Positions 7,351 through 53,445 of a DNA stretch of 64,000 bases are shown in pieces; the first letter of the stretch is position 1; every line of letters starts with the position of its first letter. Under the pieces are notes generated by a model. The model made no database searches, was not told where the DNA came from, and worked only from the letters and a program-made list of their open reading frames with translations. This DNA comes from a virus, in IMG/VR virus record IMGVR_UViG_3300044568_003163, positions 230,035-294,034 of that record. One strand, given 5' to 3'. The position numbers and the translations under genes are program-made.

Positions 7351-7578
7351 TTATTGTTCGTTAGTAAAGAATTTTGTTACTTGGTCTAAGTTTTCGTTTG
7401 CTACTGAGATGTGGTCTTCTGCCCAATCATGTCCATTCTTTAAGATTTCGTCCATTTTAATAGGATCCATAGCTAAAAGAATTTCAACATTTCTTTTGAT
7501 GGTTTTAAGATTTCCAATTGTCATATAGTTTTCAGCCTTTTCGTTTACAAATTCACTGAATGTAGGTAAGTGTTCCAT
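7351..7578 (-). CDS. Predicted internal head (capsid-targeted) protein (75 aa)
   Basis: Begins MEHLPTFSEFVNEKAEN, one of about 19 genes here whose first 10-18 residues resemble the T4 capsid-targeting sequence (T4 internal proteins start MKTYQEFIAE, cut by gp21 after the Glu). Cleavage is expected after VNE (about residue 13). The remaining 62 residues are helical and acidic and match no family I know. It is the last gene of the leftward head block and is followed by a strong terminator. Packaging in the head is inference from the leader. Confidence 0.65.
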   Translation of the reverse strand: MEHLPTFSEFVNEKAENYMTIGNLKTIKRNVEILLAMDPIKMDEILKNGHDWAEDHISVANENLDQVTKFFTNEQ

Positions 7579-7986
7579 TTACTTCAATAATTTTCTAATA
7601 TTTTCAATAACTATTGATCGATGATTGATAACTGCCTGAGCTTCTTTAGGATGTCTTTGCATAAGTTTTATCGTTTCTCTTGCCCAATTTTCTATTTCCT
7701 TTGTTAGCTCAAGAGTTTTAGGCCAGGTTGAATCGTTAACGACATCAAAATCTGGATTACCTTCTAGTGATTCAATTCCAGTTTCTACGCTTTTATCGAT
7801 GTTCGACCAATATCCACCTCCTTTAGAACTTATGATAGTTCCAACTGATACTTTTACTTTTCTAGTTCCTCTGATATTTTTAACTTCAGTGTCTTTATTA
7901 GCAATATATACATTCCAATATTCTCCACCTTTATCTAAAAATGTAGATTCATTTAAGAATTCTTCGTATGTAGGTAGTTTACTCAT
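7579..7986 (-). CDS. Predicted internal head (capsid-targeted) protein (135 aa)
   Basis: The N-terminus MSKLPTYEEFLNES fits the shared capsid-targeting pattern, with a predicted gp21 cut after FLNE. The mature part starts with a beta-rich section (EYWNVYIANKDTEV, RKVKVSVGTIISSKGGGYW), perhaps a small SH3-like barrel, and ends in helices (IENWARETIKLMQRH). No known family. It starts at the final base of the ATP-grasp gene upstream and abuts the next cargo gene downstream, so the three are probably co-transcribed. Confidence 0.65.
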   Translation of the reverse strand: MSKLPTYEEFLNESTFLDKGGEYWNVYIANKDTEVKNIRGTRKVKVSVGTIISSKGGGYWSNIDKSVETGIESLEGNPDFDVVNDSTWPKTLELTKEIENWARETIKLMQRHPKEAQAVINHRSIVIENIRKLLK

Positions 7987-9482
7987 TATTTCTTTGTTTT
8001 CTTATTTTCAAATGTTATTCCAGCATGTGCACTTCCTTTAGCTTCACCTGGATGATATTCACCATCAAATGAAGTTACTACGAAAGTTTTATATGGCGAT
8101 ACTGAACAACCAATTCTTTCCATAAATTTACGATTAACTAAAAATTTAGTAGATTTATCTGTTCTATTAACTAATGAAACCTGAACCTCTTTGTAAGTTT
8201 TACCTGCAAATGCAATATCCATTTCAATTATAGGCCTTTCATCTATATCGTTACCAACTTCTGCGTTAGAAATTCCAATTATCTGATGTACGTATTTTTT
8301 GCCGTTCAATTCCCAATTACACTGTTTACCATCTTCGCTAATTTTCATTTTATCATAAGTCATAGAACATGAAAGTGAACCGTTTCCAGTATCAAATTTA
8401 GCAACAACATCACCAATTCCAGGAATTGTAATTACTTCTCTAAATCCAATAACTCTACGAGAACGAATCCAATTTTGTCTATCTGATAGAAAATCGATGA
8501 TGTCTTTAATAACATCTACACCAGTAGCTTTTTTTAATCCTTGTGTACCTGGAGATGAGTTAACTTCCAGTACATAGTTTTTACCTGTTTTCTCATCAAC
8601 GATAATATCAACTCCACACCAATTACAACCTACTGCCTTAGCCGATTCGATTGCAATTCTTTCTTGTTCTGGTGTTAATTTAGTTTTTTCAACAGAACCA
8701 CCTAATGAATAGTTAGTTCTAAAGTCTTTATCGACTTTGTTTCTTCTCATATAACCTAAAAGTACCGAGTCAGTATCTTCTGGTTTAGGCGAATTGAAAC
8801 GTTTAGTTAAAACGTGAATACGTAAGTCATATTCTGATTCGATTTTTTCTTGTATAAGAGTTTCTACAGTTGGATCTACTTTCCATAAAGTTTGTAATAC
8901 TGATTTAAGAGATGCCAATGAATCTATAATAGAAACTCCAATTCCTTGAGAACCAGAAAGCATTTTAAGAATTACAGGAAATTGTCCGCCGATTTGTTCA
9001 ACTGCCGGTTCGATAGAATCTTCTCCATCGACCATTGCCATTTTAGGAACTGGAAGACCAGCATCCATAAGCATTTTCGAAGTAACGTATTTGTTTTCGC
9101 ATGCTAAAACTGAACTTAGTGTGTTTACTACAAAAAAGTTATTGTCTTCTAATTGAGATACAATATCTCGAGTATAAGTATTTCTAACGATTCCTCTACG
9201 AGTTAAAATCGCAGTATCTTCGGAATCAATTTTAAAGGGTTTCTTGGTTTTATCAACGATAGTAAAATAATCTCCATCAGTACTTTTAGTTAACGAACAT
9301 GTGTTAACGTCAATGATACGGAATTCAATTCCACGTTTTTTACATTCTTTCTCAACTGCAGGAACGGTATATGATTCCTCACTGATATTTGAAAGGAGTA
9401 CAACCTTAACAGGATTTTTAGGTGTTGATTTTGTAGCCTCATTAATTACAAATTCGTTAAAGTATGCGAGACGGTTTTTCAT
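7986..9482 (-). CDS. RimK-type ATP-grasp ligase fused to retropepsin-like protease, with capsid-targeting leader
   Basis: The first 16 residues (MKNRLAYFNEFVINEA) match the capsid-targeting pattern, with a cut expected after INE. Residues about 25-330 are a RimK-type ATP-grasp ligase: FPVILKMLSGSQGIGV (ATP-binding loop), DLRIHVL, FRTNYSLGG, and CGVDIIVDEKTG...VLEVNSSPGTQG (metal-binding acids). RimK enzymes add glutamate or similar residues to protein C-termini. From about residue 342 a second domain has FDTGNGSLSCSM (DTG at about 364-366), the pattern of the retropepsin-like 'ATP-dependent zinc protease' family often found beside RimK. Both in one polypeptide, with a head leader, suggests an enzyme packed in the capsid that modifies or trims a protein tail. 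Substrate unknown. Confidence 0.85.
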   Translation of the reverse strand: MKNRLAYFNEFVINEATKSTPKNPVKVVLLSNISEESYTVPAVEKECKKRGIEFRIIDVNTCSLTKSTDGDYFTIVDKTKKPFKIDSEDTAILTRRGIVRNTYTRDIVSQLEDNNFFVVNTLSSVLACENKYVTSKMLMDAGLPVPKMAMVDGEDSIEPAVEQIGGQFPVILKMLSGSQGIGVSIIDSLASLKSVLQTLWKVDPTVETLIQEKIESEYDLRIHVLTKRFNSPKPEDTDSVLLGYMRRNKVDKDFRTNYSLGGSVEKTKLTPEQERIAIESAKAVGCNWCGVDIIVDEKTGKNYVLEVNSSPGTQGLKKATGVDVIKDIIDFLSDRQNWIRSRRVIGFREVITIPGIGDVVAKFDTGNGSLSCSMTYDKMKISEDGKQCNWELNGKKYVHQIIGISNAEVGNDIDERPIIEMDIAFAGKTYKEVQVSLVNRTDKSTKFLVNRKFMERIGCSVSPYKTFVVTSFDGEYHPGEAKGSAHAGITFENKKTKK

Positions 9483-9966
9483 TTTTGCGTATATATTTTA
9501 TGAATGATTTCTGATTATCTATCATCATTCTCTTACATTTTTCAGTAAAAGCTAATGAAGATTCAATAACTCGTTGGTCTATTTTTTCGTTACCTTTAAG
9601 GTAGTATTTAAAACATTTTTCACAAGTAAAATTACTTGGAATGTATGTATCTATTCGAGATTGAATCTCTTTATTGCAATAAGCACAGTTCCAATCAAAT
9701 ATCTTATACGAATCTTTTACTAATGAATAAGAAGATATGTCTTTTGACCCTGGTTGAACAAATGGCCTATTCAAATGAGATACTCTTATTCTTCCATCTT
9801 CGATCCTAAAGATGGCATTTATAAAAAGGTCATCATCAGCATATTTCTTAACTACTGGATTTTCCTTTAGTATTCGTTGATGCCTAGGTGGAAGTCCTTT
9901 AAGTACGATTCCATATTTAGTAGGAGTTTTACCTAAGTTCTGTCTTTTTATATGATAATTAGCCAT
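9457..9966 (-). CDS. Zinc-ribbon hypothetical protein (169 aa)
   Basis: Two CxxC pairs (CAYCNKEI at about 93-100, and CEKCFKYYL) about 20 residues apart suggest a zinc ribbon in the middle of the protein. The N-terminus is basic (YHIKRQNLGKTPTKYG, GLPPRHQRIL) and the C-terminal 40 residues are helical and basic. A nucleic-acid-binding or regulatory role would fit. It overlaps the start of the ATP-grasp gene by 26 bases and the stop of the 703-aa gene by 8 bases. No family recognised. Confidence 0.6.
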   Translation of the reverse strand: MANYHIKRQNLGKTPTKYGIVLKGLPPRHQRILKENPVVKKYADDDLFINAIFRIEDGRIRVSHLNRPFVQPGSKDISSYSLVKDSYKIFDWNCAYCNKEIQSRIDTYIPSNFTCEKCFKYYLKGNEKIDQRVIESSLAFTEKCKRMMIDNQKSFIKYIRKNEKPSRIL

Positions 9967-12071: not shown

Positions 12072-12641
12072 TTAGTTTTCTGAGTTTAATGATGGAGCTG
12101 ATGGTTTTTCTAATTCAGTCGAAGGAGGAGTCATTGAAGGTATAATACTTCCTAATTCAGGAATTTCTTTATTTTCTAATTCAGCTAATTTAACTTGCAA
12201 TTTAACCACTTTCTTAAAGCCTTTTAGTTTTTCTAGCTCTAATTTACGTTCTTGTTCTAAAGATGATTTAATTTTTCCTTTTTTAAATAAGAATGCAATG
12301 TAAATTCCAGTAAGTGCTGCACCGACGGCTAATCCTTTAACAATACCTTTAGCTGTACTAATTGCAGTTCCTGCAGCAGTATCAAATTCAGCTTCACCTC
12401 CGGCTTCAGCATAAGCTTCGTTTAAATCTTCTAAAAAAGATTCATATAGATAATCGTATGAGGATGAACTTTCGTTTATTACTGATTCACTAATTCCATC
12501 ACCAGAAAATAATAACAAAAATCTAACGATCTCTTCATATTCTTTTTGTGCCGGTGTATAATTATACTGAGTGCATAATTTTCGGTAATCTTTCATCTCG
12601 TTTTGAATTCCGAGAACGTTTGTAGGTAGGATAAAAGTCAT
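12072..12641 (-). CDS. Putative prohead core/minor head protein with one membrane-like helix (189 aa)
   Basis: Acidic N-terminal half with several [LI]-x-E sites of the kind cut by gp21 (for example VINES and LEDLNEA). It is followed by a Gly/Ala-rich hydrophobic helix (VKGLAVGAALTGIYIAFLF, about residues 101-119), a Lys-rich coiled coil (LEQERKLELEKLKGFKK) and a Pro/Ser-rich end. It lies between the capsid gene and the 703-aa gene and has a late-promoter-like element in its leader, so a head role is likely. No homologue recognised. Confidence 0.55.
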   Translation of the reverse strand: MTFILPTNVLGIQNEMKDYRKLCTQYNYTPAQKEYEEIVRFLLLFSGDGISESVINESSSSYDYLYESFLEDLNEAYAEAGGEAEFDTAAGTAISTAKGIVKGLAVGAALTGIYIAFLFKKGKIKSSLEQERKLELEKLKGFKKVVKLQVKLAELENKEIPELGSIIPSMTPPSTELEKPSAPSLNSEN

Positions 12642-12748: not shown

Positions 12749-14371
12749 TTATACTAAAGAACCAAGAAGGTTAGACATAAATACACCTGAAGTGATATAC
12801 ATAGTTTCTGGTTTGAAACCTGCTTCAACTAAAGCGTATCTTGATTTAACAGCTACTTTAGGAGCCATAGTTCCTTCAGCAATTGTTTGTACTGATTCAG
12901 CCATTAAGTAAGGCATGAATACTAAACCTGGAGAGTTACCATCACCTTTACGTCCAACTAAGAAACGAGTATCGTTCCAAGCCATGTTAGGATCGTTGTA
13001 GATAGCAAGACCTGCAACAGTTCCAATTGGGTAAAGTGAACCACTCATTTGGTTAATAGTATTAGCCATAGGAGCAGGAACGAAACCAGCTATATCTTGT
13101 AGGGCAGAACATACTTGACCGTTTGTAACGATGAAAGTAGCTGGACCTCTACGACCTCTAATTGCAATAAGGTTAGCGATTGCAAGGATCTTAGACATAA
13201 TTTTTCTCTGACGAGTTGAAAGATTCTCAGAAGCTGAGTTTGTAACCTCAGAAGCAAGAATAGTTGCAGCTCTAAGAGTAGTATCTTGGATGTAAGCACC
13301 AAAGTTAGTTTGAGTGTTAGCAGATGTACCAGATACAACAATTGAAGTAGCACCAATGTTCAAGAAGAAGTTGATTCCTTGAGAGTTAACAACATTTTTG
13401 TGGTTAGTTTCTCCAAGAGCAAATAATCTAGAAAGGATGTTTTTGTTGATTGATTGAGTCAATTCATTGATAAGTACTGATTCTACTTGAGATACAGCAT
13501 CTACTCCGAATTGTTTCAAATCTTGAACTTGCTCTCTAGTAACAGCAGCTGCAACTTGGAAAGTTTTAGCTTCAACTGATTTGTTGAAAAGACTTAAGTT
13601 CATTACGTTGTCTGGAGTAGACTCACCTAAAGATCTAGAATATGGATCGTTAATATCATCTCCAGTATAATCGTTGTTAGTTAAAGCTTGACCTGAGAAT
13701 CCAGTGATGTGGTCTTCTAAAGCTTTTACTAATTCTACGTTTAATCCAGAAGTAGCACCAGTTACACCTGAGATACCTGAAGCACCTAAGATAGTAGTAA
13801 AAGTTGAAAGGATAGTAGCACCAGAAAGAGTACCTCTAACGTGGAAGATTGGATAACCATCTAAACGAGAAGATCCTACATAAGCAAGAGTAACTCCATT
13901 AGTTGAAGCAGAAGTTCCACCAACTACAAACGAAGGAACTGTAGCAGAACCATAGTTTACTTTGATTAATAATGGAGAATTTGTAGTAGAAGCAGTTTGA
14001 CCACCAGCATATACGAAGTCTAAGTAAGTTAATACTCCCATTGGACCAGGCATTGGTACAACAGGTACTAAGTCAAGACCAATAGTTTGAGCAGCAACTT
14101 GCATTGCTAATGGAAGAAGTGTGTGAGCTTTATCACCTGAACCAGCTTCTTGACCTGGGAAACCAGCTTGAGTACCTGGATCTCCAGGGAAACGAGTTGC
14201 ACCCATACCGTTTACAGAACCTAATTGAGCTAAGCTATTGTTTTCATACAATTCATGATAATGACAGTATTTAGACATCCACTCTACTCTATTACGCTCT
14301 TGAATTCCTGTAGTAGACTCAATGATTGGAGCCCATTTACCGAATATTTCTTGTTCGTTAATTAAATACAT
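12749..14371 (-). CDS. 23: Major capsid protein (gp23)
   Basis: HK97-fold shell protein of the T4 gp23 family; 540 residues against 521 in T4. Family features include the N-terminal FGKWAPIIE (T4: LLNKWKPLLE), the region around EAKTFQVAAAVTREQVQDLKQFGVDA (T4 has KAAYSIELAQDLRAVHGMDA), RKIMSKILAIANLIA, FIVTNGQV and YGSATVPSF-type beta stretches. A gp21 cut is predicted after L-Y-E at residue 43, giving a mature N-terminus NNSLAQLGSVNGMG. Part of this reappears after a matching site in the DUF3008-like protein at 41495-42208. The leader carries a late-promoter-like element at 14442-14455 and the gene ends in a strong terminator, so it can be transcribed on its own at high level. Confidence 0.92.
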   Translation of the reverse strand: MYLINEQEIFGKWAPIIESTTGIQERNRVEWMSKYCHYHELYENNSLAQLGSVNGMGATRFPGDPGTQAGFPGQEAGSGDKAHTLLPLAMQVAAQTIGLDLVPVVPMPGPMGVLTYLDFVYAGGQTASTTNSPLLIKVNYGSATVPSFVVGGTSASTNGVTLAYVGSSRLDGYPIFHVRGTLSGATILSTFTTILGASGISGVTGATSGLNVELVKALEDHITGFSGQALTNNDYTGDDINDPYSRSLGESTPDNVMNLSLFNKSVEAKTFQVAAAVTREQVQDLKQFGVDAVSQVESVLINELTQSINKNILSRLFALGETNHKNVVNSQGINFFLNIGATSIVVSGTSANTQTNFGAYIQDTTLRAATILASEVTNSASENLSTRQRKIMSKILAIANLIAIRGRRGPATFIVTNGQVCSALQDIAGFVPAPMANTINQMSGSLYPIGTVAGLAIYNDPNMAWNDTRFLVGRKGDGNSPGLVFMPYLMAESVQTIAEGTMAPKVAVKSRYALVEAGFKPETMYITSGVFMSNLLGSLV

Positions 14372-14481: not shown

Positions 14482-15102
14482 TTATAATAAGTTAACCTTT
14501 TCTAAAGATTCTAAGTTAGATTCAATTCCGTCTATTAGATTCGATATTAAAGTTTCGTATTGTTTAACATATTCATCAGTTAATATAGAAGCTCTTTCTG
14601 GATTATTTGCAAACATACTCCAATCAATACCTGAAGGTTTTAATAAAGGAGAATTTTCATCTGCAGCCGGTTTAGAATTTACTGAACCTTTTCTCATTTC
14701 TAACCCAAAATCATTATACCAGAAAGTCATTGCATTTCTTACATCAGTTATGTCTAACCTTGGTTCTTTTGATCGGTTTAAATTAGGAGCAAGAGTTCCG
14801 TAATTTTGATGTTCTTTGACAATTACTTTACGAATTTTAATAAGTTTTGAATATCCCATCATTGGTGAATATTCGATACAAAAAAGAGCTTGACCCTTAG
14901 AATTGTAAAGTTGTACACTTTCATAAGAAGGAGCTGTTTGTATACCATATTTAGAAAATATTCTTTTCAAATCTTTTCCTAGAAAATCTTTTGTGATTTT
15001 CGAAACTTGTTTGGCTATATCTAATTGATTAGGTTCTAACGAAGCTTTTTCATTAAGAATGGATTCATTAATAAATTCAGCAAATGTTAATAAATTCTTC
15101 AT
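14482..15102 (-). CDS. Predicted internal head (capsid-targeted) protein (206 aa)
   Basis: Leader MKNLLTFAEFINESILNEKA contains two overlapping gp21-type sites (INE before Ser, LNE before Lys). The mature part is of mixed alpha/beta character with no family I recognise (LFCIEYSPMMGYSKLIKIRKV, LDITDVRNAMTFWYND). It lies between the protease-scaffold and capsid genes, the region where T4 keeps its core proteins, which strengthens the head assignment. The gene starts in an A-rich leader 26 bases below a terminator. Confidence 0.68.
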   Translation of the reverse strand: MKNLLTFAEFINESILNEKASLEPNQLDIAKQVSKITKDFLGKDLKRIFSKYGIQTAPSYESVQLYNSKGQALFCIEYSPMMGYSKLIKIRKVIVKEHQNYGTLAPNLNRSKEPRLDITDVRNAMTFWYNDFGLEMRKGSVNSKPAADENSPLLKPSGIDWSMFANNPERASILTDEYVKQYETLISNLIDGIESNLESLEKVNLL

Positions 15103-15173: not shown

Positions 15174-17087
15174 TTATCTGTTAAATCTTCTTCTTAATTC
15201 AGCTTCTACGGTTTCCATGTAATTAGCCGGAGTTTTATATTCTGCAGTTTCATTAACAATTGCTGGTGCAGCACCTTCATTTAATGGAGCATCAATTTTA
15301 ACTGATCTTAAATCTCTAGTAGCCCAGAAATCATCGATTTTATATTGATTATCTAAAACTTTTACTGAAGCTTGAGCCTTAATTGAATTTCTTTGAGATT
15401 CATTTAAGTTATTCCAAGAGTCTTTGTATTTAGCTGGCATATTAGTTAACCAATTTGTAACTGGTCTAAATGCAATAAATGCAGATTCATATAATCTTTC
15501 AGCATCAACTGAACCATAGAATTTGTTATTTTCAAAAACTGCAATAACTTCGTCTTTTTTCTCAGGAGTTAATGCATCAAATTGATTTCTCTTGTTTTCT
15601 GATAGGAAATTCAAGAAGTGTAATTTGTTAGCATCTACTGATTCATTAACAGTTTTTGCATTTTCTAAAATAGTATTTAATTTGTCGGTTAATGTCTTTT
15701 GGAAAGCATCTTCTTCATTACCTTCAATTTTATCTACGATAGTTCTTTTTGGATTTGAATGTAATACTAAGTTTTCGTCGATTGATTGAGTACCTTCTAA
15801 ACCAGTAACTTTACCTTCATTAATTTCTTTAACGATGTGATTAAGATAACCTGCAAGATTTTGTGTATTTTCTTTTAAGTACTCAGTATATTCAATGATT
15901 GATGATGTACCTTCAACAATATAATCGTTATGAGAAATTACATTATCTAATTGCTCATTCATATGTTGTTGATAAGCCCAACGTGAGTTAGATTCATTAG
16001 CAAGATATTTACTAAATTCAATATTTTGATCTGCCTTTTCTGCAACAACTTTAGTATATTCAATACCTCTATCGCTCATTTCAGCAACTAATTTAGTATA
16101 CTCAATTAAGTGGTCAACCGATTCAGAAAGTTTTTCTGAGTAGTTAATTCCTTGATTAGATTTTTCACCAACTAATTCTGCATAATTTTTAACTCTTTCA
16201 AGATTTTCAATGATATAATCATTATGAGAAATTAAGCCATCAACTGATTCTGCTAGTTTTTCAACATAAGAATTAATTTGATTAACTCTTTTTGCAGTTT
16301 CTTCGGTGTAACGTATCAATCCTTCATTAACAGATGAAGAATCTTTAGCTGATGATTCGGTTAAAGACTTTTTAAGATTTTCTACTTCGTTTTTAACATG
16401 TTTAGTATATTCGTTAAAATCTTCAACGGTAATGTATTTTTTAGGATCCATTTTGTCGTTTTTTGTTTCGTTTATTGGGTTTGGGGTTGGTTCTTCTTGT
16501 TGATAGATTAAAACAGGCATATCAGATTCGCTCAAATCAGACTCTATTTCATAGATCTGTGTTAATGAATCGTTGTCTAATCCAAAAGATTCGTTTACTC
16601 TTTTCAATTCGGCATTAGCAAATCCAGGATCTGCAACTAAATCGTAAGTAAACATTTTTTTAATTTTAACATGGCCATTAGATTCAACAACACCGGCAGC
16701 TCTAGAAGAAATATGAAGAGGTACACCAGCATCTACTAATGCCATTGCTTGTTTTCCAGCATCAGTATTAAGTAATCTGATTCTACCAGTAACTTTTTTG
16801 CTAGCTTTATCGTATTGAATGTCTTCAATAATATGTGAAGCATTCTTTAACGATATATCAAAAGATTTAGGGTGGTCAAGTTCTCCAAGAAGTTTATTAC
16901 CTTTAAGTTTTTCTTGTAAGTCTTGTATGTGTGGCATTAACTCAGCTTCATCGTAAATACGATTATTCTTGTTTCTAATGCCTATTTCGGTGAAAACACC
17001 TTCCAACACATATTTATCTCCATCCTTAGAAGATGTAAGATTTCCTTCCGATCTTTCTAATACAAGTAGATATTTATTATTGCTCAT
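15174..17087 (-). CDS. 21: Prohead protease (gp21) fused to a scaffold-like coiled-coil domain
   Basis: Residues 1-165 are a gp21-family (U9) serine protease that matures the prohead: GVFTEIGIRNKNNRIY, LLGELDHPKSFD (His at about 72), HISSRAAG (Ser at 127/128) and TYDLVADPGF. T4 gp21 is only about 212 residues; here some 470 more follow. That part is acidic, with many [LI]-x-E sites and a repeated heptad-like unit (IEYTKLVAEMSDRG, IEYTKVVAEKADQN, INYSEKLSESVDHL). This looks like a scaffold (gp22 role) fused to its protease. An in-frame ATG at 16449-16451 (MDPKKYITVEDF), just after a Pro-rich linker, could start a separate scaffold product, as Nu3 does inside lambda C. The C-terminal end has LNE and VNE sites. 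Confidence 0.88.
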   Translation of the reverse strand: MSNNKYLLVLERSEGNLTSSKDGDKYVLEGVFTEIGIRNKNNRIYDEAELMPHIQDLQEKLKGNKLLGELDHPKSFDISLKNASHIIEDIQYDKASKKVTGRIRLLNTDAGKQAMALVDAGVPLHISSRAAGVVESNGHVKIKKMFTYDLVADPGFANAELKRVNESFGLDNDSLTQIYEIESDLSESDMPVLIYQQEEPTPNPINETKNDKMDPKKYITVEDFNEYTKHVKNEVENLKKSLTESSAKDSSSVNEGLIRYTEETAKRVNQINSYVEKLAESVDGLISHNDYIIENLERVKNYAELVGEKSNQGINYSEKLSESVDHLIEYTKLVAEMSDRGIEYTKVVAEKADQNIEFSKYLANESNSRWAYQQHMNEQLDNVISHNDYIVEGTSSIIEYTEYLKENTQNLAGYLNHIVKEINEGKVTGLEGTQSIDENLVLHSNPKRTIVDKIEGNEEDAFQKTLTDKLNTILENAKTVNESVDANKLHFLNFLSENKRNQFDALTPEKKDEVIAVFENNKFYGSVDAERLYESAFIAFRPVTNWLTNMPAKYKDSWNNLNESQRNSIKAQASVKVLDNQYKIDDFWATRDLRSVKIDAPLNEGAAPAIVNETAEYKTPANYMETVEAELRRRFNR

Positions 17088-17143: not shown

Positions 17144-18757
17144 TTACATTCCTGTTGCTTCGGCATCCTTTTTGGCTGCTTCTCTTCTTTCTACATCTTC
17201 GATGTCTTTTAGTTTCTTGTTAAGACGTAAATCGTCATTAGATAAACCTAAGAATCTTTGTATTAAGAATTCAGAAGCAAAGTATTTTACTTCGTTCATG
17301 TTTGCATCAGTATCAACAAGACCATCTTTCATCGAAGTTACGAAGTCTAATCTTTTCTGTAAGATTTCAATTTCTTTCATCTCTTCAAAGATGTTCATTG
17401 TGTTATATTTTACACCGATTTGGGCTTTAAACGCATCGTCTTCTTTTATTTCAGGAAAGTCTAAACACATTTGAATCCAAAGTGGTTTTGTAAGTATTTC
17501 TTGGAAAACTGAACGTAAACGAGTAACAAAACGTCCAAATTTAATCTCGTCTCTAGTCATACCCTCGGCATTCATTTCCCATGAAGGTGGGGATTCCATA
17601 TCAAAACGGGAAAGTGGAATTTTAGATACTTTAATTAATTTCTCTCTGAAGTATTTAAGAGCATCAGTATCTGAAAGGTCTGGACCATCGTTTCCAATAG
17701 TCTCTATTGTAGGTTCACCAGCATCACCTGATGGCAACCAATATTCTTTGTTAAATGGCATCATTGCTTTACCATTAACTTTTAATTCACCAGATTCAGT
17801 ATCAAAATCTATTTGCTCTCGGTAGTTTTGCATTAAAACTCCAAGAGATTGTTTTGCTCTAGTTTTTGATTTACCACCAACCGGAATTACAAATTTAGTT
17901 TTAAACGAAGCATTAACAGTAGCCCAAATAACTCTTGAGTGTTCCATAATTCTAAGTAAGTTAAAAGAACGAATAAGTCTTTCAACATAAGAAACTCGAT
18001 TTACAGTATTAACGTTAGCATAAGAGATGTAAATAACTTGAGAATCATAAACAACTCTTTCCTTATTTGGCATACCTTTAAATTGTTTCCAAATTTTCTT
18101 ACCTTCTTTATCGATTCCAGGTTCAAGATTTATTGGATCTAATTCTTTAAATCCTATAATTCTTGATTGTTCTTTGTCGTAAATTATCTCAAATGCAAGA
18201 TAACCATCAACTAACCATTTTCTAAAGTAAGACCAAGCGGCAATATCATTATTGAATCCAAAGTATTGATAGATTCTTTTAAAATTAGTATCTAAAGCGA
18301 TTTTAACTGCTTCTAATGTTGTAGGTTCTAATGTATCATCATCAAAAGATAATGGCATACAAAAGTAATTTTTATCATCATAAACTACACATTCATCACA
18401 AAGAGTATCAAGAATATCTTCTATCTCATCTTGGATAGCGAATTTTCTAAGGTCTTCTCTTTTCTTAGGATATGATTTATCAAAGATGGAAATTGATTTA
18501 CGAAGATTGATATCGGTCATCGATAGATTAGCGAAAAGTGCATAATCATCGTATTCTCCTCCAGCAACATTTCTCGGATCAAGTCTCCAACCATATTGGT
18601 CTTCGTTGATACCGATAGCTTTGGAATTCTTCAGCACCATATCATCATACATCATTCCAAAGGAAGATAATGATTTAAGTGCTTTGCTGACGATATTTCT
18701 CGAAGCCGGTGTTGGTTTACCGTTTGAGGTTTCGTCTCTATTTACAAATCCTGGCAT
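17144..18757 (-). CDS. 20: Portal protein (gp20)
   Basis: Dodecameric vertex ring through which DNA is packaged and which starts head assembly. Length 537 (T4 gp20: 524). Recognised from overall gp20-family character: YGWRLDPRNVAGGEYDDY near the N-terminus, CDECVVYDDKNYFCM, FRKWLVDGYLAFEIIYD (wing/clip region), FKTKFVIPVGGKSKTRAKQ, YREQIDFDTESGELKV, EYWLPSGDAGEPTIETIGNDGPDLSDTDAL, and FREKLIKVSKIPLSRF. Its position immediately before gp21 and gp23 is the T4 gene order. A late-promoter-like element lies at 18775-18789. Confidence 0.92.
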   Translation of the reverse strand: MPGFVNRDETSNGKPTPASRNIVSKALKSLSSFGMMYDDMVLKNSKAIGINEDQYGWRLDPRNVAGGEYDDYALFANLSMTDINLRKSISIFDKSYPKKREDLRKFAIQDEIEDILDTLCDECVVYDDKNYFCMPLSFDDDTLEPTTLEAVKIALDTNFKRIYQYFGFNNDIAAWSYFRKWLVDGYLAFEIIYDKEQSRIIGFKELDPINLEPGIDKEGKKIWKQFKGMPNKERVVYDSQVIYISYANVNTVNRVSYVERLIRSFNLLRIMEHSRVIWATVNASFKTKFVIPVGGKSKTRAKQSLGVLMQNYREQIDFDTESGELKVNGKAMMPFNKEYWLPSGDAGEPTIETIGNDGPDLSDTDALKYFREKLIKVSKIPLSRFDMESPPSWEMNAEGMTRDEIKFGRFVTRLRSVFQEILTKPLWIQMCLDFPEIKEDDAFKAQIGVKYNTMNIFEEMKEIEILQKRLDFVTSMKDGLVDTDANMNEVKYFASEFLIQRFLGLSNDDLRLNKKLKDIEDVERREAAKKDAEATGM

Positions 18758-20026: not shown

Positions 20027-20770
20027 TTAGAATTTAGATTTAGCAGTAAACCAATAGATTTCAAAGCCTCCGTATTTCTCTCCCATACATAATACATTCA
20101 TTGTCGAATCAAAAGTTATATAATCATCTGCTTCTGCCTTTGGGAAATCCTTGATTTCCGCACCTCTAAATTTAGATTTCAACGCTTTATATGTGTCATA
20201 TAAATCATCGTCAAAATTTTCATCGAGACCAAATACATCTTTTGGTTCGGCTCCTAAATGTTTACATATTTCTCTTACTAATTCCTGTAACGGTTTGTCA
20301 TCACCTTTCTCATCAATATAAGTTTGAGCATCGAATTCTCCACTTAATTCAGCGATGGCTTTAGCAACACTTAGTTTACCTTCGTTAATCGTAGAAGAAC
20401 TAGAAGTTCTTACTAATCTACGAGAGTTTTTTTTAGAGGTAGAAACACCTTCTAAAACTTGTACAAAACCACCTTTAGCAATAACATCAGCAATTTCAAC
20501 ATCGGTCATCTGAACGTCATTAGCTTTGTCTTCACCATTAAATAAGTGAACTCCATCGGTTACACCTGCATAGTACATGTCAGTGTTAACGTTTCCATCT
20601 ACTGTGATAACATATTCTTTACCAGGTAACAATTCAGAAACTGAAGTTAAAGCTGGACCAGTTGGATCTTGTCCTGTAGTATTTTGTGGGTTGAATCCAT
20701 CAGCATCAGTAGCCTCCTGAATCTTGTAATGTTCGTTTACGAACTCGTCAAATGATAATAATTTTTTCAT
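20027..20770 (-). CDS. Predicted internal head (capsid-targeted) protein, two modules (247 aa)
   Basis: Leader MKKLLSFDEFVNEHYKIQEA (sites VNE and IQE). Residues about 41-103 form a small module (LLPGKEYVITVDGN ... TDGVHLFNGEDKA ... MTDVEIADVIAKGGF) that recurs at the C-terminus of the protein at 22371-24035. The C-terminal third, ending GGFEIYWFTAKSKF, is similar to the end of the next gene upstream (20796-21203, ending YFFTAKSKFIK). A second gp21-type site, INE, precedes the C-terminal domain (SSTINEGKLS), so the modules may be released separately. Function unknown. Confidence 0.68.
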   Translation of the reverse strand: MKKLLSFDEFVNEHYKIQEATDADGFNPQNTTGQDPTGPALTSVSELLPGKEYVITVDGNVNTDMYYAGVTDGVHLFNGEDKANDVQMTDVEIADVIAKGGFVQVLEGVSTSKKNSRRLVRTSSSSTINEGKLSVAKAIAELSGEFDAQTYIDEKGDDKPLQELVREICKHLGAEPKDVFGLDENFDDDLYDTYKALKSKFRGAEIKDFPKAEADDYITFDSTMNVLCMGEKYGGFEIYWFTAKSKF

Positions 20771-20795: not shown

Positions 20796-21203
20796 TTATT
20801 TGATAAATTTAGATTTAGCAGTAAAGAAATAACTAATCATTCCATTATCTTCTGCTCTAACTACATTAGATTTTGTAAAATGATTTAAGTCTTCTCCCAT
20901 ACTGAAATCATTACTTGCAATAGATTTTGTTTCCGGAGTCATTCCGTTATATTCACTATCGATTTCATCAAAAAGCTGAACAAGATCGTCTTCCATTTCT
21001 TCTGAGCTTACCATAAAAATTTCAGTTGGTTTTGCTTTAAGAGCTTTAATTATTAAGTCGTATCCGTGATATTCACCTTCTATCTCTGTTATGTTCGGTA
21101 AATCTCTTGATTTTATAGCATCTTTGAAGAATGTTTCTTCATTTAGTGAGTTTAATTTGCTTGATTCATTTATAAATTCAGCAAAAGATAGTAAATTTTT
21201 CAT
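20796..21203 (-). CDS. Predicted internal head (capsid-targeted) protein, paralogue of the downstream gene (135 aa)
   Basis: Leader MKNLLSFAEFINES with possible cuts after INE and, further on, LNE (NSLNEETFF). The remainder is related to the C-terminal domain of the neighbouring 247-aa protein: both have the pattern A-x-P-x-[DE]-[VI]-F, a D-D-L segment and end in [WF]FTAKSKF. The pair therefore looks like a duplication in which one copy carries an extra module. No known family. Confidence 0.66.
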   Translation of the reverse strand: MKNLLSFAEFINESSKLNSLNEETFFKDAIKSRDLPNITEIEGEYHGYDLIIKALKAKPTEIFMVSSEEMEDDLVQLFDEIDSEYNGMTPETKSIASNDFSMGEDLNHFTKSNVVRAEDNGMISYFFTAKSKFIK

Positions 21204-21224: not shown

Positions 21225-21749
21225 TTATCCAATGTATGTTGGGTAACTTCCTCCAGATGCAGAATCCGTAGTGTTTCGATACCCTTTAACTTTTGGATTA
21301 GAATCTGCAGCAGATACAGGATTTAATGTACCAGTACCAACCATTTCCGCTTCTTCAACTTCTTCTCCTTCTTTTTTCTTAGGAGGATTTTCTTCTAATT
21401 CCTTTTTTAATTCCTTTTGAGCAACTACAGCTTCTGGATTTTGAATCTTTTCAGCTTTATCTCTGATTTTATTCATTTCTTCTTGACTTAATTCATCCTT
21501 AAGAATAAAAGTAGAAGGCTTTTCATTAGTAAATATTTTACTTCGGAAATAATCAAATACAAAAACTAATTTGTCTTGATCGTATACATTAAAAGTTTTA
21601 GAAAATGCGTCTTGTTCAAATCTATATTTTTCTAGATTTTCTATTTTCCATGCAGACCACCATTCTGGAGTCATAGCATATACTCGATTTAGATTAGATA
21701 GGCTAACGGATTCATTAACAAAATCTGCAAATTTTAAAAGACGATTCAT
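21225..21749 (-). CDS. Predicted internal head (capsid-targeted) protein (174 aa)
   Basis: The ORF is open to 21803, but the ATG at 21747-21749 is the real start because it yields the shared leader MNRLLKFADFVNES and avoids overlap with the sigma-factor gene. The first half is alpha/beta (YAMTPEWWSAWKIENL, LVFVFDYFRSKIF). The second half is a charged coiled coil with KAEKIQNPEAVVAQKEL, a stretch that recurs in the cargo gene at 42215-42784, followed by a Gly/Ser-rich end GGSYPTYIG. No known family. Confidence 0.66.
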   Translation of the reverse strand: MNRLLKFADFVNESVSLSNLNRVYAMTPEWWSAWKIENLEKYRFEQDAFSKTFNVYDQDKLVFVFDYFRSKIFTNEKPSTFILKDELSQEEMNKIRDKAEKIQNPEAVVAQKELKKELEENPPKKKEGEEVEEAEMVGTGTLNPVSAADSNPKVKGYRNTTDSASGGSYPTYIG

Positions 21750-21762: not shown

Positions 21763-22122
21763 TTAAACGGAATAAATACCTTCAGAATCACCATTACCTC
21801 CACTTAGAGAAATAGTTCCTTTGTATTTTCCTGGATGTAATTTATTCCATCCTTTTGCATATCCATTTTTTGCTATTTGAGTAAAATATGAAAATGCGTT
21901 TTTTGTTTTTTCTGGCTTAAATGATTTCCAGTATTTAAACAAATCCAAAAGGGCAAAAGCTATACAATCTTCTCTGTCCATCGGATCTTCATACGTTAAT
22001 CGTGTATTAGCTCGATAGGCAATTAAGATCAGCATTTCTTCTGCCTTCTTGGTTAATTTTTCTTGTTTTAAGGAAATGCATATTTCCTCGTAGAGTTCTT
22101 TTGGTTTTACGTAAATTGACAT
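21763..22122 (-). CDS. 55: Late-transcription sigma factor, gp55-like (119 aa)
   Basis: T4 gp55 is a small sigma-like protein that directs host RNA polymerase to late promoters. Residues about 48-95 here look like sigma region 2: DPMDREDCIAFALLDLFKYW, SFKPEKTKNAFSYFTQIAKNGYAKGW. T4 gp55 has the equivalent ...[24 protein letters not shown]. Upstream is a helical segment (KAEEMLILIAYRANTRL) like the T4 N-terminus. It is shorter than T4 gp55 (185) and ends soon after region 2. The repeated GATATATA-type elements in this window would be its natural targets. It is embedded among head-cargo genes. Confidence 0.75.
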   Translation of the reverse strand: MSIYVKPKELYEEICISLKQEKLTKKAEEMLILIAYRANTRLTYEDPMDREDCIAFALLDLFKYWKSFKPEKTKNAFSYFTQIAKNGYAKGWNKLHPGKYKGTISLSGGNGDSEGIYSV

Positions 22123-29765: not shown

Positions 29766-29768
29766 ATT

Positions 29769-30239: not shown

Positions 30240-30240
30240 A

Positions 30241-42785: not shown

Positions 42786-43448
42786 TTATTTGCAGTTGTA
42801 TATTGTTTTTTTGTATTGTCTAGCCATTTGATTGAAATGAGATTCTCTACCGTTATAAAAAGTAAGAGAATAACTTCCTGGTTTTAATTTTTTCTTTAAT
42901 GTATCGTAACCTAAAGTAGCGTAACAAACTACAATATTAGCTTGAGTTGTTATAGCTGCAAAAATACCAAATGTAGTTGCAGAGATGCCAGCAATTTTAA
43001 GGTTTTTATCGTCTGGATTTAATCCAAATGCTCCTGAAGCTCTAGCAAATCCATCTACGGAAACTTCACCAGAAACAAATCCCTTTTCTTTATGTAATTT
43101 AGTAAGACGCTTGATTTCGTCAAAAATTTCTTCTGCTTCTGTATCACTTATTGTAATGTCTTTAAGGGCCTCATTTAAAAAATTTTCATTTTCTAGAATT
43201 CCTTCTACTACTTGTGGCATACCATTATAGAATGCAGCATAAGTATTTCCCTTTTCGAAATATTTAGATAATTTATAAGATCCGTTTTTAGCACCTACCA
43301 CATAAACAGTTTCACCTCTTTCACTTTTCTTTGAAGCCTCTCGTTTTATGTTATCTAGGTCATTTGCTCGAACATTACCTGAACCAGCTAAAGGACCGAA
43401 TTCATTTAAGTTCTCATTAAGATATTCATCGAATGTCGTTAATTTCAT
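42786..43448 (-). CDS. Predicted internal head (capsid-targeted) protein (220 aa)
   Basis: Leader MKLTTFDEYLNENLNEFG with two LNE sites. A further LNE (ENFLNEALKD, about residue 92) separates an N-terminal beta-type domain (GETVYVVGAKNGSYKLSKYF) from a C-terminal part with a hydrophobic stretch (IAGISATTFGIFAAITTQANIVV). No family recognised. Starts 10 bases after the 83-aa cargo gene and ends 1 base before the next. Confidence 0.66.
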   Translation of the reverse strand: MKLTTFDEYLNENLNEFGPLAGSGNVRANDLDNIKREASKKSERGETVYVVGAKNGSYKLSKYFEKGNTYAAFYNGMPQVVEGILENENFLNEALKDITISDTEAEEIFDEIKRLTKLHKEKGFVSGEVSVDGFARASGAFGLNPDDKNLKIAGISATTFGIFAAITTQANIVVCYATLGYDTLKKKLKPGSYSLTFYNGRESHFNQMARQYKKTIYNCK

Positions 43449-43458: not shown

Positions 43459-43710
43459 TTATTTTGCGTAAGCTTTTTGGGTTTTACGTAATTTAGTTTG
43501 AATGTTGATAACGTTAATTTTAGCGTTTATTAATTCAAGTTGAACCTTAAACAGACCAATCTTTTCAGGATGTTCCTTTATAGATTTTTGTATCTTTGCG
43601 GCTGACATTTTTAATGCAGCAATAGAATCCGAAGTTTTTTGTTCAGGTGTTCTTCGATCTTCAGAAGCTTCGTTAAGATATTCATCGAATGATGGTATGT
43701 AATTAAGCAT
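43459..43710 (-). CDS. Predicted internal head (capsid-targeted) small helical protein (83 aa)
   Basis: Leader MLNYIPSFDEYLNEASED, cut expected after LNE. The remaining 69 residues are a basic helical hairpin or coiled coil (IAALKMSAAKIQKSIKEH, LINAKINVINIQTKLRK). Positive charge would suit DNA contact inside the head, as for T4 internal proteins. No family. Confidence 0.65.
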   Translation of the reverse strand: MLNYIPSFDEYLNEASEDRRTPEQKTSDSIAALKMSAAKIQKSIKEHPEKIGLFKVQLELINAKINVINIQTKLRKTQKAYAK

Positions 43711-43714: not shown

Positions 43715-44047
43715 TTAAATTGTTTTTCCTATTATTATTTTGCAATCTTGATCGAAATTTCGTTTCTCATCGTCAGGATATGAATTTGAAATAATTATCT
43801 TTCCATTTTCTCTTACTATGATATTATACGAGATTCCTTCTCCATAAGATATAAAACGATAAGTTTCTTCTCGATCTTCGTCTTTAGTCATGAATGCATT
43901 GATGTTCTTAGCATCTTTATTCTTTTTAGCAAATTTTTCTTTTGCCTCATCATCAGGACTCCAAGTCTTTTTGGCTAATTGAAGTCTTTCGATAGAATAC
44001 CTAACCTCGGCTTCATTAACAAAGTCACTGAATTTTTTAAGTTTCAT
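43715..44047 (-). CDS. Predicted internal head (capsid-targeted) protein (110 aa)
   Basis: Leader MKLKKFSDFVNEAEVRY, cut expected after VNE. The body is Lys/Asp-rich with a C-terminal beta section (ISYNIIVRENGKIIISNSYP). Start shares its last base with the stop of the upstream 351-aa gene. Unknown family. Confidence 0.63.
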   Translation of the reverse strand: MKLKKFSDFVNEAEVRYSIERLQLAKKTWSPDDEAKEKFAKKNKDAKNINAFMTKDEDREETYRFISYGEGISYNIIVRENGKIIISNSYPDDEKRNFDQDCKIIIGKTI

Positions 44048-45102
44048 TATAGCCCTAAGTCTCTTTTGGCCATCATGATAGCAACTTTATAATATTGAGC
44101 AGTTCCTTCGTCGGATGTAGAAGTAAGAGCTTTTGTAAGTTCTTTAATATTATCATTTCCATCAAATTTGAATTTAGTTAATGCATTTGCAGGAACTCTA
44201 AAGAAATCTGAAAGTCTAGAAATACATTCTTTTTTAATTTGTTCTTCCGGATATACAATTCTTGATTCAGAAATAACATCTTCATTTTCAGATTTATTCT
44301 GTAAAGCAATAAGATCGTTTATTTGTTTTCTTTTACCGTTAGTCAATTCAACTACTTTATGAGAGATTCCGTAATATTTCTTGTCTCCTGGAGAAAGTGA
44401 TTTATTCATACGAGATTTCATTGCAACTAATGCATCTTTGTCATCGCCAGTTTCTATAACGTTACCCATATCTCTACCTACAAAAATAGGAAATGAATTT
44501 CGAGTTCCAATAGATCCACCGGTTCTAACTAATGCAAATTGTTTAGATAAATCAACAGCACCTTCAAAAATAGGCTCAGTTTTTGATTCATTAATTGTAT
44601 TGAACTTAAAAAGTCCGATTGATTCTTTAACCATTTCGTTGGTAGTTTTTTTATTTTGTAAAATGTGTTGTAATACTCGTTTTCCGTAAATTGAAAGGGT
44701 TAATAAAGGCTTTCCTGCATTTTTAAATGATTGGAAATATTTTTCATTTCGATCAAACCATTGCTTTTGGTTGATAGTCTTTCCTCTATTCTTCGACAAA
44801 TCTAAAAAGAAATGGTCTAAGTCTTCTTTAGTTACGAACTGTGCACCTACAAATTCAATTACTTTGTCTCGTATAGGTGCTGAACTGTTTGCAAGTTTAG
44901 ATGCATATTGCCCGTATTTTCTTTTAATTTGTACTCTTTCTCCTATGTAATCTCCATAGTTTTCACTTATTGCAACAATGTCATTTATTCGAGTAAATTC
45001 ATCACCAGAATTAATAGTCACAACCGTACCTTCTTCTAAAAGTACTTTGATAGATTCTCTACAAATAAGAATTTCATTTAGAAAGTCTCTGGTAAAATTC
45101 AT
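44047..45102 (-). CDS. Hypothetical protein with weak capsid-targeting-like start (351 aa)
   Basis: The start MNFTRDFLNEILI is a shortened variant of the cargo leader (FLNE). A later INE site (FNTINESKTE, about residue 169) divides the protein. The first part has LSIYGKRVLQHILQNKK; the second ALVRTGGSIGTRNSFPIFVGRDMGN and a helical end. No family recognised. Placed in the 41-46 kb cargo block. Confidence 0.55.
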   Translation of the reverse strand: MNFTRDFLNEILICRESIKVLLEEGTVVTINSGDEFTRINDIVAISENYGDYIGERVQIKRKYGQYASKLANSSAPIRDKVIEFVGAQFVTKEDLDHFFLDLSKNRGKTINQKQWFDRNEKYFQSFKNAGKPLLTLSIYGKRVLQHILQNKKTTNEMVKESIGLFKFNTINESKTEPIFEGAVDLSKQFALVRTGGSIGTRNSFPIFVGRDMGNVIETGDDKDALVAMKSRMNKSLSPGDKKYYGISHKVVELTNGKRKQINDLIALQNKSENEDVISESRIVYPEEQIKKECISRLSDFFRVPANALTKFKFDGNDNIKELTKALTSTSDEGTAQYYKVAIMMAKRDLGL

Positions 45103-51051: not shown

Positions 51052-51402
51052 TTAAACATCACCAAAATGTGATATTTTTTCATTCAGCTCTTCTGTTGTA
51101 TGACCGCATCTAGCATTTTTCTTTTTGTTTTCTCGCGCTTTTAGCATTTGTAAATTGCATGGATGTGCTAAGAAAAAAGGATCCATTTTATCTTTGAATC
51201 CTTGTGATATTGAATAGATGTGGTCTAAATGATTAGCTTTCCAGCTTCTCTTTAAATTTTTAGGATTAATGATATTTTTAAAAAGATCGTAATTTCTTTC
51301 CGTTAAAGCTCGGACAAATATAAAATAATCTTCTTTGTTGTCTAATAGCTCTTGATAATTATTTCGATATGTTTCAAAATTTATTAAATTAGGATTTAGC
51401 AT
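51052..51402 (-). CDS. HNH-type nuclease-like protein (116 aa)
   Basis: NHLDHIYSISQGFKD (about 57-71) followed by HPCNLQMLKARENKKKNARC is the betabetaalpha-metal HNH pattern (D-H-I...N-L...N-x-x-K). Small free-standing HNH proteins in phages are often homing endonucleases or packaging-associated nucleases. It overlaps the KTSC gene by 14 bases and lies upstream of the SSB leader; it may be a mobile gene inserted there. Confidence 0.7.
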   Translation of the reverse strand: MLNPNLINFETYRNNYQELLDNKEDYFIFVRALTERNYDLFKNIINPKNLKRSWKANHLDHIYSISQGFKDKMDPFFLAHPCNLQMLKARENKKKNARCGHTTEELNEKISHFGDV

Positions 51403-51715
51403 CTTTTATTTTTTCATATTTATAATCTTCTCGTCTAATCATTTTCCAAAATCGAGTACCATAAGTTTTCATCTTTTCTCTGGAAAATAAATTTTGAACT
51501 CCACTAGTTAATGAATCAAGCTTAGTCTTTTCATCACCAAAAATTCTAAATACTCTAGGTGGTACATCAAAATAACGATAGACTGAACCATCCCAAAATT
51601 CAATTTCTAACTTTCTAGTTTCAGAATCATATTTGATGTTTTCTAAATGCGAAGAATCAACCGGCTTATTATACGCCGCTTCATTCAAGAAATCTTCGTA
51701 TTTCAAAAAGTTCAT
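51389..51715 (-). CDS. KTSC-domain protein with capsid-targeting leader (108 aa)
   Basis: Leader MNFLKYEDFLNEAAYNK (cut after LNE), then a KTSC domain: VDSSHLENIKYD, LEIEFWDGSVYRYFDVPPRVF. KTSC is a small beta domain found at the C-terminus of some lysyl-tRNA synthetases and in many phage and stress-gene contexts; its activity is unknown. The C-terminal 40 residues are basic. Joined to a head leader it is a good candidate injected protein. Confidence 0.75.
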   Translation of the reverse strand: MNFLKYEDFLNEAAYNKPVDSSHLENIKYDSETRKLEIEFWDGSVYRYFDVPPRVFRIFGDEKTKLDSLTSGVQNLFSREKMKTYGTRFWKMIRREDYKYEKIKDAKS

Positions 51716-52042
51716 TTATGTAGTTCTATTTTTCTCGATCCAAGCTTTATAAACTTTGATTGCATCTCGCATACCTTCAGTTTGGTGTTCATGTTTAGCT
51801 GCTCTATTCATCATTGTAGTAGCTATCGACATAGCCCATTGGTGTTCGCCTTTCTTTTCTAATCCATCTAATTGCTTACAACTAGATTCGGCCTTTTCTT
51901 TATCGGCATATCCAGTTCCCTTTAAGGCTCTTCTACCACCTTTGCTATATAAACCAATATCCGGTGGATTTTTGTTTTCTTCGTCTAATTCAAAAGTTTC
52001 GAATATTTCAACGAATTCTGCGTAATTTAAGAATGTTTTCAT
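51716..52042 (-). CDS. Predicted internal head protein with GTGYADKEKA domain (108 aa)
   Basis: Start taken at ATG 52040-52042 (MKTFLNYAEFVEIFE), a variant of the head leader, rather than 52087. The body has YSKGGRRALKGTGYADKEKA, QWAMSIATTMMNRAAKHEHQT and MRDAIKVYKAWIEKN, a pattern I recognise from uncharacterised conserved phage proteins. A late-type GATATATACTATATG sequence ends at its start codon. Confidence 0.6.
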   Translation of the reverse strand: MKTFLNYAEFVEIFETFELDEENKNPPDIGLYSKGGRRALKGTGYADKEKAESSCKQLDGLEKKGEHQWAMSIATTMMNRAAKHEHQTEGMRDAIKVYKAWIEKNRTT

Positions 52043-52057
52043 ATAGTATATATCTTG
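52042..52057 (-). promoter_or_regulatory. Late-promoter-like element at the 51716-52042 gene
   Basis: Minus strand AAGATATATACTATATG runs into the start codon, so the message would be almost leaderless unless the start point lies further up. A relative, GATACATATACTATATG, precedes the gene at 53146-53445. Confidence 0.42.
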
Positions 52058-52781: not shown

Positions 52782-52782
52782 A

Positions 52783-53145
52783 TTATATTTTTTTGCCTAA
52801 AGCAGCACCTAAAGCAGCACCTACTAAACGACTAGTTAACATATCAAAAACTACACCTTTCTCTATTCCTAGAACATTAGCAATAATTTTTCCGATCGAT
52901 GAACCTAAAGCAAATCCTGTAAGTCCTCCTAGGATAGATCCTAAAAATCCTTCATTTGTAAGTTCTTCATTAAGGTCTTTAATAGTTTTAGTGTCCATAT
53001 ATTCTTCGCAAAAAGCTTTGATTGCGGCATCTACCTTAGCTTCTTCTTCTGTCGTAAGTTCGGATTTTAAATTTTCATTAAGTTCTAATAATTCAGCTTC
53101 GGTAAATCTACCTTCCGATAAAAGATGTTCTTTAAATGTTTTCAT
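52783..53145 (-). CDS. Capsid-targeted glycine-zipper membrane protein (120 aa)
   Basis: The start MKTFKEHLLSEGRF is leader-like (LSE site at residue 11); further L-x-E sites (LNE at 24 and 60) lead up to a C-terminal half that is a glycine zipper: GFLGSILGGLTGFALGSS and LVGAALGAALGKKI. Such repeats insert in membranes and can form pores. If cut at residue 60, a compact hydrophobic peptide of about 60 residues is released. A role in DNA or protein passage through the host inner membrane is inference. Confidence 0.65.
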   Translation of the reverse strand: MKTFKEHLLSEGRFTEAELLELNENLKSELTTEEEAKVDAAIKAFCEEYMDTKTIKDLNEELTNEGFLGSILGGLTGFALGSSIGKIIANVLGIEKGVVFDMLTSRLVGAALGAALGKKI

Positions 53146-53445
53146 TTAGTTTTTAAATTCTTTTAAAAGTGAATCTGCTAAATATCTAGCGTTTATTCTA
53201 AAAATTAATCCAGCTGCTACGTGATTTTTTTCCCATTCCATGCAATCTCTAAAAAAATCCATGTTATTAAAGTACTTTTCAATAAAAGATGCCATTTCTT
53301 CTTTAGGATAATTATCAACAGTTTTTCCATCTGGGATGAATTGAATATAAGATCCGGCATGGTCTTGATTACCTATCATAGTAAAGGTAAATCCACTAGA
53401 AGAAAATCTATTAGCTTCTAGTATAAGTTCGTTAAATGTTTTCAT
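53146..53445 (-). CDS. Predicted internal head (capsid-targeted) protein (99 aa)
   Basis: The leader MKTFNELILEANRF is the closest match here to the T4 form MKTYQEFIAEARV, with the cut expected after ILE and before Ala. The rest is alpha/beta (FTFTMIGNQDHAGSYIQFIP) with a helical end. No known family. It starts 15 bases after the tube-like gene and is followed directly by the glycine-zipper gene. Confidence 0.68.
   Translation of the reverse strand: MKTFNELILEANRFSSSGFTFTMIGNQDHAGSYIQFIPDGKTVDNYPKEEMASFIEKYFNNMDFFRDCMEWEKNHVAAGLIFRINARYLADSLLKEFKN

Follow-up and report, generated by a model that had tools for sequence, protein, structure and literature searches.

The internal head proteins IPI, IPII, IPIII and Alt of phage T4 begin with a short amino-terminal leader that has aromatic residues at its targeting positions and is cut after [IL]-x-E, while the protein bodies behind it are unrelated. 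The first ten residues of IPIII are enough for packaging, and mutants of this capsid-targeting sequence (CTS) revealed the importance of residues 4 and 7 in targeting and of residues 8 and 10 in cutting, the gp21 protease cleaving after L/I-x-E (PMC9026906). Ip1-3 of T4 are injected proteins that inhibit type IV restriction enzymes; three Ips occur in T4, and a minimum of 10 was reported across related phages (PMC12373910). A leader of this type was found on numerous proteins in the 64,000-nucleotide window analysed here, bases 230035-294034 of the IMG/VR virus record IMGVR_UViG_3300044568_003163 (294,034 bases, guanine plus cytosine content 33%, almost all genes on one strand). The phage probably packs a large and exchangeable assortment of these proteins into its head for delivery into the infected bacterium.

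Other phages also carry processed proteins in their heads. In phiKZ and SPN3US many head proteins, several of them cut by the prohead protease, are ejected with the DNA; several SPN3US propeptides exceed 100 residues and eight of about 50 head proteins were found processed (PMC5694885, PMC7411985). Those phages have no short leader shared over a large set, unlike the phage described here, in which the phiKZ/SPN3US-type features (long propeptides, S-x-E and A-x-E sites) were not encountered: the leaders are ~10-16 residues long and end in [LIV]-N-E. Polyvalent proteins of phages and plasmids, such as DdrB and DarA of P1, are presented in the consulted part of their description as single polypeptides with several unlike domains, thought to be injected and sometimes cut before packaging (PMC5512222). 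That part places the domains in one large protein and describes no CTS-type tag, whereas here the tag is on each protein and what seems to divide one domain from the next is a site for the general prohead protease; one cargo weakly resembles ART-PolyVal. Compared to T4, the genome has ~53-65 tagged proteins, a number far over that of T4 as had been predicted, the leader usually has three extra residues at its front with N favoured before the final E, many cargo have internal sites, and protease and scaffold are fused.

The closest named phages are Tenacibaculum phage PTm1, Chryseobacterium phage MA9V-2 and Prevotella phage Lak, whose capsid proteins are related (32-36% identity). The host is thus likely to belong to the Bacteroidota, judging from the bacteria that these phages infect. 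The protease of PTm1 and MA9V-2 is also rich in [LIV]NE, and all three phages are poor in cargo, with zero to two plausible leaders detected by the same DNA pattern. In MA9V-2 a leader (MKTFTYFINE) is found on MA9V2_208, the neighbour of the protease gene. A 462-kb record is nearer by its capsid protein (56% identity), and a DNA-level search gave no near match among annotated phages. Ribosomal protein bS21, marker of one published Bacteroidetes jumbo-phage group, was searched for and not found, and the phage is therefore not assigned to that group.

The strict leader motif, defined as [FYL]..[FYWL][LIV].E inside the first 20 residues, is present at the amino terminus of 57 of the 423 genes called in the whole record, where its internal rate predicts 2.5 and shuffled amino termini give 3.6. 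Four of these matches were judged to be due to chance and dropped, which leaves 53 clear leaders; another dozen or so are shifted or decayed, giving perhaps 65 tagged proteins altogether. Genes were called with a simple in-house caller on overlapping 20-kb stretches of the record, so the exact gene and leader counts carry some error, the surplus being still ~15-fold. The aligned leaders have the consensus MKNxxTFxEFxNE, with [FY] in 51 of 54 and [FYW] in 53 of 54 followed by [LIV] and then E, but the search pattern itself demands most of these positions and independent support is limited to the consensus, the N preceding the final E (45 of 54) and the S or A right after the predicted cut (33 of 54). 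Seven partial relatives have 16-37 tagged genes each, where 0.5-2.5 are expected.

The leader agrees with the T4 CTS at exactly the residues important for targeting (4 and 7) and for processing (8 and 10). The same kind of pattern applied at the DNA level to T4 returns ipII, ipIII and gene 61.1, while records of Prevotella and Tenacibaculum phages and of cyanophages yield few or no matches, which shows that the leader is not general to AT-rich phage genomes. T4 gene 61.1 (NC_000866 18966-19130, locus L105), annotated as hypothetical, starts with MKTFKEFIKE, a near-perfect capsid-targeting leader, which to our knowledge makes it a candidate overlooked so far. Two cargo have weak matches (E=6e-4 and 9e-3) to the PHROG family of internal head proteins, phrog_2667.

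Related phages keep the leader in front of unrelated bodies. Its strict cores are distinct at the DNA level in 39 of 39 cases with the protein motif kept, indicating that selection acts on the protein, and 96 of 106 aligned orthologues have a strict or loose leader, also at body identities of 30-60%. Past the leader the proteins are mostly unrelated, as had been foreseen, mean column identity being 7% in an alignment of 60 proteins. An equally frequent motif on early cytoplasmic enzymes would have spoken against packaging according to the original prediction, but gp46/47, gp41, UvsX, NrdA/B, UvsW, primase, gp32 and dUTPase, the replication and nucleotide enzymes of the window identified by eye from sequence, all lack it.

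The original prediction listed 16 strong genes in the window, all of which are present on the - strand at the starts given; 15 match the strict motif and the sixteenth, 7986-9482, has one inserted residue (MKNRLAYFNEFVINEA). Three weaker leaders, at genes starting at 45102, 52042 and 53145, are backed by orthologues in related phages, which for gene 52042 have a proper leader in most cases. All of the about 19 genes then counted carry a full, shifted or decayed leader, but they make up about one third of the whole set. The tagged genes of the window, together with the sigma factor gene found among them, are as follows (a slash marks the predicted cut):

7351..7578 (-): tagged cargo, 75 amino acids, MEHLPTFSEFVNE/K; strict leader, also present in orthologues, such as that of relative G001 (96% identical)
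7579..7986 (-): tagged cargo, 135 amino acids, MSKLPTYEEFLNE/S; strict leader; body is an internal module in a relative's predicted polyprotein
7986..9482 (-): tagged cargo, 498 amino acids, RimK-type ATP-grasp ligase (phrog_2599 E=5e-18), MKNRLAYFNEFVINE/A with one-residue insertion; leader in 6 of 7 orthologues
14482..15102 (-): tagged cargo, 206 amino acids, MKNLLTFAEFINE/S, second site ILNE/K; strict leader
20027..20770 (-): tagged cargo, 247 amino acids, MKKLLSFDEFVNE/H; strict leader, kept by orthologues in 6 relatives
20796..21203 (-): tagged cargo, 135 amino acids, MKNLLSFAEFINE/S; strict leader
21225..21749 (-): tagged cargo, 174 amino acids, MNRLLKFADFVNE/S; strict leader, kept by orthologues
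21763..22122 (-): gp55-type late sigma factor within a cargo operon (phrog_234 E=9e-12)
22135..22356 (-): tagged cargo, 73 amino acids, MKLSTFDEWLNE/S; strict leader
24064..24741 (-): tagged cargo, 225 amino acids, MKNLQTYEDFILE/S; strict leader
24743..25732 (-): tagged cargo, 329 amino acids, MSKIKSYEEFVNE/N; strict leader; first gene of its operon behind the promoter-like motif GATATATAA
42215..42784 (-): tagged cargo, 189 amino acids, MKHIPTYEEFVNE/S, second site MLNE/A; strict leader; internal PVNE/G at a domain junction
42786..43448 (-): tagged cargo, 220 amino acids, MKLTTFDEYLNE/N; strict leader
43459..43710 (-): tagged cargo, 83 amino acids, MLNYIPSFDEYLNE/A; strict leader
43715..44047 (-): tagged cargo, 110 amino acids, MKLKKFSDFVNE/A; strict leader
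44047..45102 (-): probable tagged cargo, shifted leader MNFTRDFLNE/I; loose leader in both orthologues (G001, G008)
51389..51715 (-): tagged cargo, 108 amino acids, probable KTSC domain, MNFLKYEDFLNE/A; strict leader; matches PHROGs of unknown function over residues 7-84
51716..52042 (-): decayed tagged cargo, MKTFLNYAEFVEIFE, with GATATATA upstream; full leader in orthologues of G004, G006, G008 and G009
52783..53145 (-): tagged cargo, variant leader MKTFKEHLLSE/G; leader in 4 of 4 orthologues
53146..53445 (-): tagged cargo, 99 amino acids, MKTFNELILE/A, closest to T4 MKTYQEFIAE/A; strict leader, kept by orthologues

Further large tagged clusters lie outside the window, at 33-35 kb, 41-42 kb, 108.6-117 kb and 165-181 kb of the genome. 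The original prediction, supported as regards the tag, had overlooked these clusters as well as the internal sites that make many cargo resemble polyproteins.

The window encodes T4-type head genes, including the predicted gp21 of its own, and the capsid protein, portal, head closure protein, prohead protease and gp55-type late sigma factor were all recognised. Those that bear on the leader are:

12072..12596 (-): small head-region protein adjoining the capsid gene, sites VINE/S and LNE/A; assigned from sequence, promoter-like GATATATAA upstream
12749..14371 (-): major capsid protein, gp23 type (phrog_138 E=1e-33); its amino-terminal INE and LYE/N sites are conserved family-wide
15174..17087 (-): gp21-type prohead protease fused to a scaffold-like carboxyl-terminal part (phrog_207 E=2e-40); GATATATAA upstream
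17144..18757 (-): portal protein (phrog_213 E=5e-73)

The motif that ends the leader recurs in these proteins. The protease-scaffold protein has eight [LIV]NE sites in its 637 residues and, among 40+ relatives, members of its family have 2-16 per protein, mostly 7-16 per 1000 residues, compared to 1.2 per 1000 residues in untagged proteins of the phage. Of the controls in this family, [LIV]ND and [LIV]NQ are nearly absent and the third, EN[LIV], is commoner. Members of the capsid family have a conserved [IL]NE at their start and, in most of them, LYE or LNE just ahead of the expected mature part. The 462-kb relative and a record nearly identical to it often have tags without the N before the final E, and their protease-scaffold likewise has few NE sites, which agrees with tag and protease sites changing together, in one lineage only. 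In this group protease and scaffold form a single protein (locus L096), the version of Chryseobacterium phage MA9V-2 having 1207 residues and 16 [LIV]NE sites. The carboxyl-terminal part of a small protein at 41495-42208 of the window (SSVNGMGPIALP) resembles the amino-terminal arm of the capsid protein 12749-14371 (GSVNGMGATRFP).

The identification of the leader as a capsid-targeting tag is well supported by the match to the CTS residues, the gp21-type protease, the shared [LIV]NE sites and the conservation over unrelated bodies. It is very probable that the leader is a T4-type modular tag whose cargo are packaged, cut by the phage's own protease and delivered, many of them as polyproteins. 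The amino-terminal segment M-K-x(2-4)-[FY]-x-x-F would draw ~53-65 proteins into the prohead core, where the gp21-type protease would then cleave after [LIV]-N-E, and the mature proteins would remain in the head alongside the DNA until their delivery at infection. From the sequences and the T4 precedent we infer packaging, cutting, injection and a host-directed function of the cargo. Injection and action in the host are plausible by analogy: several cargo are enzymes and T4 internal proteins are injected, so that the "injected effector arsenal" of the original prediction stands as a plausible suggestion.

The tag would in many cases bring in several small domains at once, internal [LIV]NE sites separating them, and the domains would shuffle between free-standing and fused forms among phages. 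The motif E[SG]x(0-3)[LIV]NE occurs in tagged bodies at 1.32 per 1000 residues versus 0.11 (11.6-fold, p=2e-7), and pooled relatives have an 8-fold enrichment of internal sites (p=8e-11). When a domain junction is defined by a free-standing tagged protein of one phage that lies inside a longer protein of another, [LIVM]NE is found at 15 residues or less from the junction in 18 of 28 cases versus 4.6 at random; near homology boundaries it is present in 47 of 135, compared to 19, with flat control tripeptides. In the clearest fusion the body of 7579-7986 shares 92% identity with the latter half of a protein in a relative, with TESAMNE/S at the joint. For the protein encoded at genome positions 169016-170428, matches to different partners were seen for four modules, with breaks in the alignment at ESVINE, ESSVNE and ESYVNE. 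Many cargo thus look like polyproteins and their internal [LIV]NE sites are likely cut. Multi-module cargo are seen although most modules lack a known activity.

An alternative for this part only, in which the capsid tag is real but gene fusion left the internal sites behind as uncut relics and the fused cargo stay single multidomain proteins, appears unlikely. The protein at genome positions 171723-172910 has an internal leader that is almost complete, which would fit a recent fusion. Most internal sites, however, lost the aromatics and retained [LIV]NE[GA], which suggests that the residues for cutting are selected: aromatics stand at the two targeting positions in 9% of internal sites versus 83% of leaders, the latter figure being partly fixed by the search. 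The cutting half of the tag is thus kept inside proteins and its targeting half is not. Moreover, in tagged bodies the controls [LIV]DE, [LIV]KE, [LIV]SE, [LIV]ND and the reversed motif are not enriched, while [LIV]NQ tends, if at all, towards depletion.

T4 core proteins are cleaved at several L/I-x-E sites and exit the head (PMC9026906). The many tagged proteins with internal sites could accordingly be mainly components of the prohead core, like T4 gp22, gp67 and gp68, that assist in head assembly and are afterwards chopped up and lost instead of delivered. This is improbable: the internal sites lie between whole domains and not throughout the proteins, several such domains exist elsewhere as single-site cargo, the scaffold role appears to be already taken by the carboxyl-terminal part of the protease, and enzyme families (RimK ligase, nucleotidyltransferases) account for several of the bodies.

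Most of the cargo, 60 of which were searched in Pfam, have no known family. RimK-family matches are strong (Pfam E=2e-34, NCBIfam TIGR00768 E=3e-47), a cytidylyltransferase/adenylyltransferase domain occurs free and fused, and the one KTSC match among the 60 (Pfam E=8e-14) was given to 51389..51715 by the sequence of that protein. The model of a 304-residue cargo, with a predicted local distance difference test score (pLDDT) of 83, places the leader, with low certainty, in a helix of its own and has a fold like that of DNA polymerase beta/mu and of terminal uridylyltransferase (Foldseek E ~5e-4), a likeness at the superfamily level only as template modelling scores are low. Weaker candidates are a possible ADP-ribosyltransferase (Pfam ART-PolyVal E=1e-3, below the cut-off), an RNA 2'-phosphotransferase-like cargo (E=3e-4) and a polynucleotide-kinase-like phosphatase with a decayed leader. 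PADLOC gave a single weak match over the 60 cargo, profiles of two cargo families found nothing among solved structures, and single-protein searches for further relatives of two cargo returned close copies only. Full or decayed leaders are present on the phosphatase (genome positions 32385-32978), a possible nucleotide ligase (180224-181513) and a polymerase-beta-like transferase (166687-167601), which together could form a nucleic-acid repair set. Motifs noticed by eye, ligase-like KTDG, metallopeptidase-like HELTH and ParB-like DGHHR, are leads only.

Expression signals also bear on the destination of the cargo. The motif GATATATA(A) precedes the genes of the capsid protein, small head protein, protease and a large tail-region protein, and heads several cargo operons. 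When each gene was assigned to the first promoter-like motif met on walking upstream, the motifs being consensus matches and hence putative promoters, the late-type motif stood above tagged genes more often than above others (odds ratio 3.9, p=4e-11, a value that is optimistic because genes of one operon are not independent). Two promoter-like motifs split the genome: GATATATAA is found before structural and cargo operons and TATATTTGT[AC]TAT before other genes. The T4-type late promoter TATAAATA is not enriched ahead of tagged genes, the late-type motif here resembling GATATATAA. That the leader directs proteins elsewhere in the infected cell, for instance to a replication compartment or the membrane, would fit the early-type motif at some tagged genes and the fact that some tagged enzymes could act in the cytoplasm. 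It is nevertheless very improbable, since the leader is associated with late-type motifs, matches the functional residues of the T4 CTS and ends in a processing motif common to the protease-scaffold and capsid proteins. A spread of shared 5' ends by recombination or duplication without functional need, evoked by the strong clustering of tagged genes as in a recombination hotspot (32 adjacent pairs versus 6.5 expected), is hardly credible given the 39 different DNA cores that keep the protein motif and the leaders held by orthologues of 30-60% body identity.

Several observations weigh against the packaging of a delivered, polyprotein-like cargo. The phage is uncultured and known from metagenomic sequence alone. 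The leader is missing in 10 of the 106 orthologues. T4 internal proteins are clearly basic, whereas the mature cargo surpass other proteins in basicity by a moderate margin only (isoelectric point above 8 in 42% versus 24%, median 6.7). The enrichment of internal sites is carried by this phage and relatives G006 and G013, several relatives being singly not significant. The structure predicted for 169016-170428 has low confidence over its length (mean pLDDT 59) and is too weak to prove domain limits, although the ESVINE, ESSVNE and ESYVNE sites fall within segments that are among its worst (158-166, 233-246 and 325-342). Finally, two early-type motifs lie within the largest cargo cluster, and some cargo may therefore be made early as well as late.

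On balance it seems likely that a giant-phage lineage, probably growing on Bacteroidota, turned the T4 capsid tag into a general loader for more than 50 products, many of them protease-cut polyproteins whose domains are freely exchanged. No earlier report of so large a tagged set or of polyprotein head cargo was found in the literature searched, which excluded most subscription journals. If true, this would be the largest tagged cargo set known to us and, in nature, a case of a phage head loaded with polyproteins. Among genes without a known function, injected head proteins usually escape notice, while a readable tag marks dozens of them here; together with the cutting sites, which mark domain ends, it provides a testable list of proteins meant for the first minutes of infection.

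Two large proteins of the genome, encoded at 27895-30855 (-) and 52373-55354 (+), have near-identical starts (QDYRLNKTRPLTWKE). The latter is the sole large gene on the + strand, and the opposed orientation of the two genes suggests a possible invertible pair of tail-type proteins.

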